Below are positions 13,727 through 62,841 of a DNA stretch of 64,000 bases, piece after piece (positions within the stretch are counted from its first letter, which is position 1; the number at the start of each line of letters is the position of its first letter). The notes beneath the pieces are model-generated. The model searched no databases and was not told the origin of the DNA. It saw only the letters and a program-made list of their open reading frames with translations. The translations under genes were made by a program, and so were the position numbers. The stretch is from Desulfobulbaceae bacterium (GTDB taxonomy: Bacteria > Desulfobacterota > Desulfobulbia > Desulfobulbales > Desulfobulbaceae), in NCBI GenBank assembly GCA_023544645.1, contig JAMJFO010000003.1, positions 1 through 64,000 on the forward strand. The letters are read 5' to 3'.

Positions 13727-13824
13727 GGAAGTGGATAGGGCGCTGGTGGCCCTCCCGGACTTCAAATCCGGTGCGCCGGGTGAACAGCCTGGCGGGTGGG
13801 TTCGATTCCCATGCACTTCCGCCA
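13727..13824 (+). tRNA. selC: tRNA-Sec (anticodon UCA)
   Basis: 98 bases including an encoded CCA. The acceptor stem pairs GGAAGTG at 13727 with CACTTCC before GCCA. There is a long D arm (GGGCGCTGGTGGCCC), an anticodon stem-loop CCGGACTTCAAATCCGG with anticodon TCA, a long variable arm (GCGCCGGGTGAACAGCCTGGCGG) and a T arm GGGTTCGATTCCC. The UCA anticodon, the long acceptor/variable arms and the total length identify selenocysteine tRNA rather than tRNA-Ser. It implies that the organism inserts selenocysteine at UGA; selA, selB and selD are not in the window. Its 3' end lies seven bases from the 3' end of glyQ on the other strand. Confidence 0.95.
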
Positions 13825-35129: not shown

Positions 35130-35202
35130 AACAAGAAAATGCCAAACCTGCCGTAAGACAGGGACGGAAAGCCACGGATCTTTTAAGACAGCCGGGTTGC
35201 CT
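35130..35202 (+). promoter_or_regulatory. cyclic di-GMP-I (GEMM) riboswitch aptamer
   Basis: The sequence holds the GEMM-I landmarks in order: GCCAAACC (35141-35148), a short P2 hairpin with a GTAA turn (CCTGCCGTAAGACAGG), the tetraloop-receptor/joining segment GGGACGGAAAGCC, a P3 helix CACGGATC...GA and the closing CAGCCGGGTTGCC (35189-35201). These match the known pattern GGGCAAACC / GGGACGCAAAGCC / CAGCCGGGTTGCC closely, with GACGGAAAGCC in place of GACGCAAAGCC. The 3' strand is also the left arm of a terminator, so the switch probably controls transcription read-through into the protease gene at 35338. The sign of control (on or off with ligand) is inferred: ligand binding would hold the 3' strand and favour read-through. 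Confidence 0.85.
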
Positions 35203-35229
35203 TGCATAAAGGCAACCCGGTTTTTTTTA
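35191..35229 (+). terminator. riboswitch expression-platform terminator
   Basis: CCGGGTTGCC (35192-35201) pairs perfectly with GGCAACCCGG (35211-35220), followed by eight T. The left arm is the 3' strand of the c-di-GMP aptamer, so aptamer folding and terminator folding exclude each other. Confidence 0.9.
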
Positions 35230-53157: not shown

Positions 53158-53306
53158 TCCTTGATATTCAAGGGATGCGATAGAAGCGGAGGACTGTATT
53201 TCCCGCTGGCCAGCCTACGATGTGGCCGTGCGACAATTTGCCACATTCTTTTGCTTCCACTGATATTATAAAGTTCTTTTTATATGTTTAAAAATGCAGC
53301 TGTTAA

Positions 53307-53354
53307 CCCGCATTTCCCAATAGTTTTCGTTATGAAAGCGGTGAGAAATGCGGG
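53307..53354. repeat. palindromic repeat element, copy C (48 bp, centre deleted)
   Basis: The ends are CCCGCATTTCCCA and GTGAGAAATGCGGG; between them is AGTTTTCGTTATGAAAGCGG, matching the reverse complement of the right end of copy A (AGTTTTCGTTACGAAAGCCC). It is a short derivative of the same family, 43 bases upstream of the selenocytochrome gene. Confidence 0.82.
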
Positions 53355-53397
53355 TTTAAGGGGAAATGGCTGCTGATTCTTTCAAAAAGGAGGTATT

Positions 53398-55512
53398 ATG
53401 ATTGTTTCACGGTGGATTATCACCACGCCATTTCTCCTGGCCTGCGCCGGGATACTGGCGTGGTCCACGCAGGCTGGCGCGGCTGCATCTTCAAGTTGCG
53501 TTACCTGTCATCTTGATGAAGACATGCTGACCGATAACCTTGCTGTCGTCAAGGCAAAGGCTTCGGCAAAGCAGTCGGGCTCCGGCTGAGGCGGGAAAGT
53601 GGCTCCGTTGGAGCCGCAGACAAAAGTCCTGGTCTCAGAAGAATTTTTAAATTCAACCCATGGCGAGATCAGCTGCGAAGAGTGCCATGGCGGCAACCCG
53701 GCAGAGGTTGACAAAGCCAAGGCCCATGACGGTATGGAACCCTATCCGGCGCTGAAAAATCCGGAAAAGGCCTGTGGCGAGTGCCACGAGGATATTGTCA
53801 AGACAGCGAAAAATTCACTGCATGCAACCCTTTCAACCTTTGAGACAGTGCTGAAGTCCAGGGCTGACATGGCTTTGTGGGACCAGATCGATGAGGCCCG
53901 CTCCAACCATTGCGCGGCCTGTCATACCAACAGCTGTGCCGCCTGTCATATCAGCAGGCCCAAGGCGTCCAAGAAGGGTTTTATCAATGGGCATGTTTTC
54001 CAGAAGCACACTGATCCCGTCAACCAGTGTACCGCCTGTCACGGCAGCCGTGTCGGCATGGAATACTACGGTTCGCGGGGAGAGGGAGATGTGCATGCCG
54101 CCAAATACAACATGGATTGCGTATCCTGTCACAAGGCGGAAGAAATGCATGCCGACGGTACAGGTCTGCCCGGCCGTTATCACCTGCAGGAGATGGTCCA
54201 CTGTGAAGACTGCCATCCGAAACTTGAGCACGGTTCCGTGCGTGATCATGCCATTCATATCGGCAAGGTCCAGTGCCAGGTCTGTCATTCCCAGACCTAT
54301 GTCAACTGCTACAGTTGTCATACCGGGCGGGATGAGGAAGGTCTCTACTACTTTGTCAACCAGAAAGAAGTCGAATCCATGAAGATCGGCATGAACTATG
54401 ATAAAGACGCCCCGCAAGCAGGTTATGATTACATGCTGGTGCGCCATATCCCGGTGGATCCTGATCTGTTCAAGTTCTATATAGAGGATGCTCTGAAAAA
54501 TTTCGACCAGGTGCCGAACTGGAAGCGCACCTCGCCGCATAACATCCAGAGAAAAACCTGGCAGAATGCAAATTGCAACAACTGCCATGGTCAGAGAGAA
54601 CTTTTTCTGAGCAATGATGATCTGTTGGATTACGAGAAAAAGGCCAATGCGCCTGTTGTGGTTGCCAAGGTGCCCGAGGCGATTAAAGAAACGACGCCGT
54701 TCAGTGTCGATACCTCAGGTGTCAGAAAGTCCATGGTTGTTGATGCCAAGTGGCTGCATGACAACATGGGCAAGGTACTTCTGATTGATGCCCGGTCGGA
54801 AGACGAATATGACAATGGTCATATCGAAGGTGCGATTTCGCTTAATCCTCTAGCCGCTGCTTTCCGCACCGATCCTGATGACGACAATCCTCTGACCCTG
54901 GTCGACTTTGAAAACATTGCCGAAATCCTCGGCAGTGCTGGTATTGGCGTCAATGACCATGTTGTGGTCTACGATAAGGCCGGCCCCATCTCAGGGTACC
55001 TGCTCTGGATCCTTGAGTATGCCGGGGTAAAAAATATCTCGTATCTGGAAGGCGGCATCGAGGGTTGGCATGAAGCCGGATATCATGTAACTGATAAGCC
55101 CACCGAGGCCAAGGCGGCGAAGTTTGACGGTAAGGCAAATCCACAGTTTGTCACCGGCAATGACTTTGTCCGGGCAAACCTGGATAATGCCGATGTGGTG
55201 GTACTGGATGCCAGGATTATTACCCAGGCCAAAGGCATGATCGGCCACGGTCTTGCAGAACGCGCCGGGCATATCCCCGGATCCGTTAACCTGCCATTGT
55301 CCGCCCTGTATATGGATAATGGAGCCTTAAAATCACCGGATGAATTGCTCTGGATGCTGAAGAAGTACGGAATCACTCCGGACAAGACAGTCATTACCAC
55401 CTGCAACACCGGTCAGCTGGCTGCAGGCGCCTTTTTCATGCTGCGCTATCTCGGCTTTGACGATGTCAAGGTCCATGATGATTCGTGGATCAGCTGGTGC
55501 GCCACTGAATAA
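53398..55512 (+). CDS. predicted selenocysteine-containing undecaheme cytochrome c with two rhodanese domains
   Basis: One frame from ATG 53398 (AAGGAGG ribosome site) to 55512, read through an in-frame TGA at 53587-53589 as selenocysteine (residue 64 of 704). A signal peptide (IITTPFLLACAGILAWSTQA) is followed by the first heme motif CVTCH (residue 34), then KASAKQSGSG-Sec-GGKVAP. Ten more CxxCH motifs occur at about residues 93, 126, 172, 180, 211, 241, 269, 293, 304 and 393, eleven in total. Residues ~445-570 are a rhodanese domain whose active-site Cys is replaced (VVVYDKAGPISGY). Residues ~585-704 are a second rhodanese domain with the active loop TCNTGQLA (Cys669). The second half has no own start with a ribosome site and no own signal peptide. 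It would be a periplasmic electron carrier/sulfur- or selenium-handling enzyme. If the TGA were a true stop, a 63-residue monoheme peptide would result. Confidence 0.82.
53587..53617 (+). promoter_or_regulatory. SECIS-like hairpin behind the in-frame TGA
   Basis: After TGA (53587-53589), GTGGCTCC (53599-53606) pairs with GGAGCCGC (53610-53617), with six perfect pairs plus a G-T wobble and an outer G-C pair. The three-base apical loop is GTT. The loop G is 18 bases after the TGA, within the 16-37 base window of known bacterial SECIS elements, and it has the expected G at the start of the loop. Confidence 0.7.
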
Positions 55513-55551: not shown

Positions 55552-55592
55552 AAAAACGGCCCGGAAGATATTCTTCCGGGCCGTTTTTTTTG
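55552..55592. terminator. bidirectional rho-independent terminator
   Basis: AAAACGGCCCGGAAGA pairs with TCTTCCGGGCCGTTTT (16 perfect base pairs), with T and A tracts on either side. It ends the cytochrome gene and the minus-strand Cache gene. Confidence 0.93.
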
Positions 55593-61675: not shown

Positions 61676-61788
61676 CGATATCCTGAATCCGATGAGATGG
61701 TCTCCCCCCGCTTTTCAAATCGGCATCATTGTGCCACGATGGAAGAATGTTTTTTTAACCATCAAACAAAAAGCAAGAGGAGACCAGG

Positions 61789-62841
61789 ATGAATATTACA
61801 ACAGTTGGTTTGGATTTGGCAAAGAATGTTTTTCATCTCATCGGCTTCAACGAGCGCGGCAAAGAGGTCAAGAAGCGTTACTCAGGCGTAATCAGGTCCT
61901 GCAATTCTTTGTACATTGCCACCGTGCCTGGTTTGCATGGAGGCTTGCGCCGGCTCGCATTACTGGGGGCGCGAATTACGTGCCCTGGGCCATGAAGTGA
62001 AACTTATACCTCCTCAACATGTGAAGCCCTATCTGAGAGGCAACAAAAATGATTATAACGATGCTCGCGCCATCGTCGAGGCAGCAAGTCGACCATCTAT
62101 GCCGGTTGTCGCAATCAAAACACCAGAAGAGCAGGATATGCAAGCCATTCACCGAATGCGTTCCCAGTGTCTTCGGGATCGCACGGCGCTATGCAATTCC
62201 ACCCGAGGACTCTTGGGTGAATACGGTATTGCCATGGCTAAAGGCGTTAGCAAATTGCGGAGCCTCATTCCCCGGCTTTTGGAAGATGCGCAGAACGGGC
62301 TGAGCGATCTTTTCCGTGAATTGCTTGCCCGTCGCTATGAGCAACTGATCGAGTTGGATGTGGGCAACTGATCGAGTTGGATGCTCATATAGAGTTTTTT
62401 ACGAGCAAACTTAAAATACTCGCTCAGCAGAATGACTCTTGTCAACGCTTGCAGACGATACCAGGCTTTGGCCCTATTGTTGCCAGTGCCTTTTGCGCAG
62501 TCATCGGAGATGGCCGTGCTTGTTGCCGTGGGCGAGATGCCGCTGCATCTTTGGGGCTGGTTCCCCGCCAGCACAGCACCGGCGGCAAAAACGTCCTTCT
62601 CGGCATAAGCAAACGAGGAGATAGCTATTTGCGTAGCCTGCTCGTTCACGGAGCACGTGCGGTCGTTCAACAAGCGGCCGGCAAAGAGGATAAGCTGAGC
62701 CGATGGATCAACCGAATATGCGAAGAGCGCGGATGGAACAAAGCGGTAGTCGCCATGGCAAACAAGATGACTCGTATGGGTTGGGCCATCTTGCGATATA
62801 ACACCAGTTATCAACCTGTTGTAGGCAGTCCTGTTCATTAA
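61789..62841 (+). pseudogene. IS110-family (IS1111-type) transposase, frameshifted
   Basis: The DEDD recombinase is spread over three frames. Frame one gives MNITTVGLDLAKNVFHLIGF (first Asp) as far as ~61880, a second frame continues LLRRNQVLQFFVH, and from ~61915 a third frame gives CLVCMEACAGSHYWGRELRA and NKNDYNDARAIVEAA (second acidic pair). At 62341-62383 a 20-base direct repeat (period 23) shifts the frame again and creates a stop. The last part, from ~62377, holds PGFGPIVASAFCAVIGDG, the HTH, and FGS-like end up to YNTSYQPVVGSP. At least three lesions make it inactive. GAGGAGACC precedes the ATG. Confidence 0.9.
62341..62383 (+). repeat. tandem duplication inside the transposase gene
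   Basis: GCAACTGATCGAGTTGGATG occurs at 62341-62360 and again at 62364-62383, separated by TGG; the period is 23 bases. Removing one unit restores the reading frame (EQLIELDAHIEFF), so it is a recent slippage or duplication event. Confidence 0.95.

Follow-up and report, generated by a model that had tools for sequence, protein, structure and literature searches.

The gene considered here lies on the forward strand of the 64,000-nucleotide stretch of DNA that was analysed (the window), where it stands alone, without a cluster around it. Its features, and the tRNA gene relevant to its decoding, are given below in window coordinates with strand.

13727 to 13824, + strand: selC, the tRNA for selenocysteine (Sec), anticodon TCA, found in the window
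53389 to 53393, + strand: Shine-Dalgarno sequence GGAGG, 4 nt 5' of the ATG, read from the sequence
53398 to 55512, + strand: whole gene; predicted product of 704 residues, an undecahaem cytochrome with one Sec and a two-domain rhodanese at its C-terminus
53398 to 53484, + strand: signal peptide (MIVSRWIITTPFLLACAGILAWSTQAGAA), from inspection of the sequence by eye, not computed
53497 to 54591, + strand: undecahaem cytochrome domain with 11 CXXCH motifs (residues 34–398), from motif count and alignment
53587 to 53589, + strand: UGA codon read as selenocysteine 64, from the reading frame and homologues
53599 to 53617, + strand: SECIS-like hairpin with an 8-bp stem and loop GUU, from folding and homologue comparison
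54736 to 55083, + strand: rhodanese domain 1, with Asp replacing the catalytic Cys, from Pfam and comparison
55123 to 55509, + strand: rhodanese domain 2, with catalytic loop CNTGQLA, from sequence and fold comparison
55402 to 55404, + strand: codon (TGC) of rhodanese Cys669, invariant in the aligned fused Sec relatives
55557 to 55590, + strand: terminator-like hairpin (GGCCCGGAAGATATTCTTCCGGGCC, then a T run), read from the sequence

Just 5' of the gene there is a perfect 12-base inverted repeat (53305–53316 and 53345–53356; AACCCGCATTTC and GAAATGCGGGTT) that could be an operator or a hairpin, and that is absent upstream of the gene in the five nearest relatives checked. Elsewhere the window contains a c-di-GMP-I-GGC riboswitch aptamer (35132–35205, + strand), which scores above the Rfam gathering score, and a region (61692–62841, + strand) with ORFs in several frames that by eye resemble a broken IS110-type transposase.

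The frame from 53398 to 55512 has a single internal stop, which falls at residue 64 in the context SGSGUGGKVAPLEP. The original prediction had described a frame with a strong ribosome site and a signal peptide, interrupted solely by the TGA at 53587 in the context SGSG-TGA-GGK, with selC in the same window, and all of these elements were recovered. Its count of 641 codons after the TGA is corrected here to 640 sense codons. It had further held that the downstream part lacks start signals of its own, and the ORF after the TGA, taken alone, would indeed begin at the GTG at 53599, with neither a ribosome site nor a signal peptide. The architecture that it proposed, an 11-haem cytochrome with one Sec and two rhodanese domains of which one has an active-site Cys, agrees with the 11 CXXCH motifs and with the position of Cys669 in the second rhodanese domain.

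The CXXCH motifs begin at residues 34, 93, 126, 172, 180, 211, 241, 269, 293, 304 and 393, such that one haem motif precedes the UGA and ten follow it. All of the haem Cys and His residues are conserved in at least 90% of family members, and haem 1, the motif before the UGA, is invariant. Nine His residues outside the CXXCH motifs (88, 110, 142, 199, 233, 251, 284, 287 and 381) are conserved to the same extent. One member, L030, has 11 haems and exactly nine non-CXXCH His in total, and since nine other His cannot serve 11 haems, two of its haems cannot be bis-His ligated. The structure model predicted with the help of six relatives has pLDDT values below 50 for residues 17–436, which makes the haem part unusable. 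As judged at the level of sequence, the protein is exported to the periplasm as a c-type multihaem cytochrome. Two relatives (L034 and L036, family f37) have signal peptides with lipobox-like LASC and LMGC motifs, and may be lipoproteins.

Across 395 genomes from this phylum of sulfate reducers, the cytochrome part was found in 50 loci from 46 genomes, each with one or more in-frame TGAs; in some of these loci the extra stops separate an adjoining rhodanese gene. TGA occupies the equivalent codon in every extracted locus, within a G-x-G-U-[GA]-G or A-G-U-G-V motif, and this recurrence excludes chance or a sequencing error. Among the 50 matches listed in a class-level search, 38 have the TGA and 12 do not. 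Alignment of homologues at residue 64, the check suggested with the original prediction, gave UGA in 67 of 78 distinct members, Tyr (TAC or TAT) in ten and Cys (TGC) in one, and Trp was found at this position in none of the family members. Both U64 and Gly63 are conserved in at least 90% of members, although counting the later Tyr clade as well lowers U64 to 86%. The original prediction had named a sense codon other than one for Cys or Sec as counting against Sec, and the ten Tyr members do carry such a codon, but they belong to a derived clade nested among the UGA forms. The Tyr and Cys forms together make up one clade (tree support 100/100) within the fused forms, with Cys as sister to Tyr, in a tree where U was entered as Cys, a bias in 1 of 415 columns. 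The shortest codon path runs from TGA through TGC to TAC. Tyr is thus best regarded as a later loss, and not as counter-evidence to Sec. Loss of the Sec system was considered as the origin of the Tyr form and rejected, since genome G339 retains selB and selC. The Tyr64 members are still fused to a rhodanese and retain its Cys wherever the loop could be located, which argues that a selenium or sulfur nucleophile at position 64 is not required in every member. Genome G633 carries two fused forms (L130 and L128), one with Sec and one with Tyr, and genome G611 carries two Sec forms (L132 and L133), one fused and one split, so the variants do not simply stand in for one another.

The hairpin with loop GTT that was originally noted nine bases past the TGA was found at that position, its stem formed by pairing of 53599–53606 with 53610–53617. 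Folding of the window sequence from the UGA onward gave a minimum free energy of −25.3 kcal/mol (z −4.1), and none of 200 shuffled sequences was as stable. A hairpin is present in 69 of the 69 distinct UGA sequences tested, by a search rule that demands G among the first two loop bases, with the loop starting 16–18 nt 3' of the UGA and a median energy of −12.8 kcal/mol. In contrast, the median for Sec-less members is −2.25 kcal/mol (p 9e-6), with two of 12 (L119 and L127) having a hairpin as stable as those of the UGA forms. In 28 of the 33 genes tested, a hairpin of equal stability occurs at 5% or less of the other codons of the same gene. Covariation was assessed over the 8-bp stem in 21 gap-free sequences. 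Pairing was observed in 93.5% of cells, compared with an average of 83.4% in shuffles, which never reached the observed value, and at most 48% when the stem was slid; cells with double changes numbered 11, compared with 2.8 in shuffles. The clearest case is the exchange of GGCUCC-GUU-GGAGCC for GGAGCC-GUU-GGCUCC, for which the cost to the protein is a change from APLEP to EPLAP.

The genome also encodes selA, selB and two copies of selD outside the window, so that with selC the sel set is complete. The second selD (G000:C98:54936-55865, − strand) itself has an in-frame TGA, and the ordinary selD is on C76. Co-distribution with selC was dropped as evidence because 355 of the 395 phylum genomes exceed the cut-off, and it therefore discriminates nothing. 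The conserved residue, the covarying hairpin, the Cys homologue and the full sel set bear out the original assignment, and the UGA at 53587 is almost certainly decoded as selenocysteine 64. Decoding as Trp, or reading as a stop, was rejected in view of the lack of any Trp member and the covariation of the hairpin.

The C-terminal tail contains two rhodanese stretches recognised by Pfam (E 2e-33). By sequence and fold it is of the mercaptopyruvate/thiosulfate sulfurtransferase (MST/TST) type, with two domains and the catalytic Cys in the second, and sequence comparison identifies it as a mercaptopyruvate/thiosulfate-type sulfurtransferase. Gene models were available for 31 Sec loci: in six the cytochrome and a rhodanese are fused, in 21 the adjacent gene is a rhodanese, which makes 27 with such a partner, and in four none is seen there. 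The next gene is thus a signal-bearing rhodanese in 21 of the 25 unfused loci, on the same strand and usually within 110 bp. At least three kinds of partner occur: some are MST-like with two domains, some are short PspE-like proteins with one domain, and some belong to a 193-residue type. The fused forms occupy a single branch of the tree (30 rows, support 99/98) and all come from the taxonomic order to which the window's bacterium belongs, the rhodanese part being seen in those rows of the branch whose contig or stretch is long enough. On this tree the fusion arose once, within that taxonomic order, and elsewhere in the phylum the two parts are mostly neighbouring genes. In four relatives (L077, L078, L080 and L083) the cluster additionally encodes another rhodanese together with a nine-haem cytochrome whose membrane part is formate-dehydrogenase-gamma-like (cytochrome-b-like), and in three of the four it encodes a seven-haem protein as well. 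The membrane part suggests a link to the quinone pool, and these clusters possibly encode a whole quinol-to-chalcogen chain.

The originally suggested involvement in sulfur, selenium or tellurium chemistry is plausible given that a rhodanese is the conserved neighbour, and a redox role towards chalcogens is, in our estimate, slightly better than an even bet. Our best guess is that the protein is a periplasmic chalcogen reductase acting on thiosulfate, polysulfide or selenite, in which the rhodanese donates sulfane sulfur to a Sec beside a non-bis-His haem. In this scheme Cys669 in the second rhodanese domain would accept sulfane sulfur, or the corresponding selenium species, with thiosulfate, polysulfide or a persulfide as the source, and hand it to Sec64, which would adjoin, or ligate, a haem with a non-His distal ligand. 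Periplasmic carriers would feed electrons down the haem chain, and the chalcogen would leave as sulfide or selenide. There is a precedent in TsdA, in which a Cys haem ligand carries the substrate sulfur as a thiosulfonate (PMC4423706). The explanation as a whole, comprising Sec decoding, export, 11 haems and a rhodanese-to-Sec sulfur relay, seems to us reasonably likely, and the Sec-persulfide step as drawn is less likely than not.

We consider it doubtful that the protein is instead a selenite- or tellurite-handling cytochrome working like the Geobacter ext system, in which the Sec cytochrome ExtKL is clustered with the rhodanese ExtH and reduction of both selenite and tellurite suffers when the porin ExtI is lost (PMC5877670, PMC6148476). 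That system likewise combines a Sec cytochrome with a rhodanese that is exported, many of its rhodaneses being non-orthologous (PMC6148476, PMC5877670), and the profiles of ExtM and ExtH weakly resemble the cytochrome part and the tail, respectively, with scores far under cut-off. However, the NCBIfam ExtKL model NF040886 (cut-off 250 bits) did not match the window gene at an E threshold of 0.001, and by eye no ext-type porin was recognised beside it. In sediments, moreover, sulfur bacteria encounter thiosulfate and polysulfide far more than selenite. We think it unlikely that Sec64 serves as the axial ligand of one haem, selenolate-ligated and chalcogen-tuned like the Cys-ligated haems of SoxA and TsdA, with the Tyr and Cys forms keeping an anionic ligand. 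Each of Sec, Cys and Tyr could bind haem iron as an anion, at least two haems of member L030 are without a His partner, and residue 64 is otherwise conserved like the His ligands; however, the spare haems could have Met or Lys as ligands, or a spare haem may be an open site. Many multihaem cytochromes are conduits, and in several relatives the gene is near the nine-haem cytochrome with a cytochrome-b-like membrane part, as might be expected if the protein transferred electrons, its Sec did no more than switch redox state or trap metal, and the rhodanese were a separate sulfur-detoxifying domain. However, many families within one phylum have retained Sec and the cytochrome is repeatedly paired with different kinds of rhodanese, which suggests a catalytic unit and makes such a role quite improbable. 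Finally, almost no weight can be given to the TGA being a true stop or the mark of a pseudogene, with a separate or dead downstream frame, since the frame is formally interrupted but the same codon and flanking protein recur across the 50 loci, the hairpin covaries, start signals are absent downstream of the TGA and haem 1, upstream of it, is invariant.

Dozens of relatives keep both the Sec and its RNA signal, and the family therefore looks like an undescribed selenium-dependent enzyme family, which probably acts on sulfur or selenium compounds. It is common, occurring in about one in eight of the sampled phylum genomes. None of the four members tested scored above the cut-off of any NCBIfam model (June 2026), and annotation pipelines would therefore be expected to break the gene at the UGA, yielding a short fragment and a cytochrome that lacks its N-terminal part. 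A selenoproteome review of May 2026 lists as Sec cytochromes ExtKL and a GenBank-annotated octahaem protein, none with 11 haems or a fused rhodanese. Our literature search found nothing on an 11-haem Sec cytochrome–rhodanese architecture, nor any enzyme in which Sec, a haem chain and a sulfurtransferase act together; others may have noted single sequences. This is apparently a second, undescribed family of Sec multihaem cytochromes, here with a built-in sulfurtransferase. A stronger proposal, that its members are new selenoenzymes using Sec as haem ligand or adjacent nucleophile, to which a rhodanese, either fused or encoded next to it, delivers sulfane sulfur, is a speculative one that we rate as rather unlikely. 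If it held, the protein would represent a naturally occurring selenolate-haem (or Sec-persulfide) enzyme that reduces thiosulfate, polysulfide or selenite. The natural Sec, Cys and Tyr variants and the fused and split forms offer a test bed for the contribution of selenium to haem-based sulfur chemistry, which bears on sulfur and polysulfide respiration and disproportionation.

Among known systems, ExtKL/MccSep (NF040886; GSU2937-2936; PDB 9WT8, 9WT9) comes closest in kind, and it is the sole Sec cytochrome family with a solved structure that our searches turned up. It shares with the window protein an exported multihaem c-type cytochrome, one Sec and the same phylum, its Geobacter gene is clustered with a rhodanese-like protein, and members above the NF040886 cut-off are present in genomes G145 and G088. 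However, ExtKL/MccSep has five haems, with the Sec after all of them in AGHxIPDGU (residue 325, PDB 9WT9) and no fused rhodanese, whereas the window protein has 11 haems and its Sec between haems 1 and 2 in GxGUGG. Identity with ExtKL was rejected, as neither the model nor the anatomy fits. ExtH (NF040901) is likewise a rhodanese paired with a Sec cytochrome, but it is a separate lipoprotein, and the window tail matches it with 23 bits (cut-off 200) over one rhodanese part. The best solved-structure match of the family profile is octahaem tetrathionate reductase (1SP3, TIGR04315; E 2e-7, in CXXCH-rich stretches), a family for which PMC13188914 also notes a Sec-bearing GenBank entry. Identity with this enzyme was also rejected, the window protein scoring 21.7 bits with TIGR04315 (cut-off 375) and having 11 haems, not eight. 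Family searches revealed no sequence relation to TsdA or SoxA; the likeness is the proposed chalcogen residue at a haem carrying substrate sulfur, for which di-haem TsdA and its SoxA relatives use Cys and the window protein would use Sec. The C-terminal 265 residues resemble MST/TST enzymes (SseA, 1URH, and bovine rhodanese) in having two domains with the Cys in the second, and are distinguished from them by the loop CNTGQLA and by fusion to an exported cytochrome.
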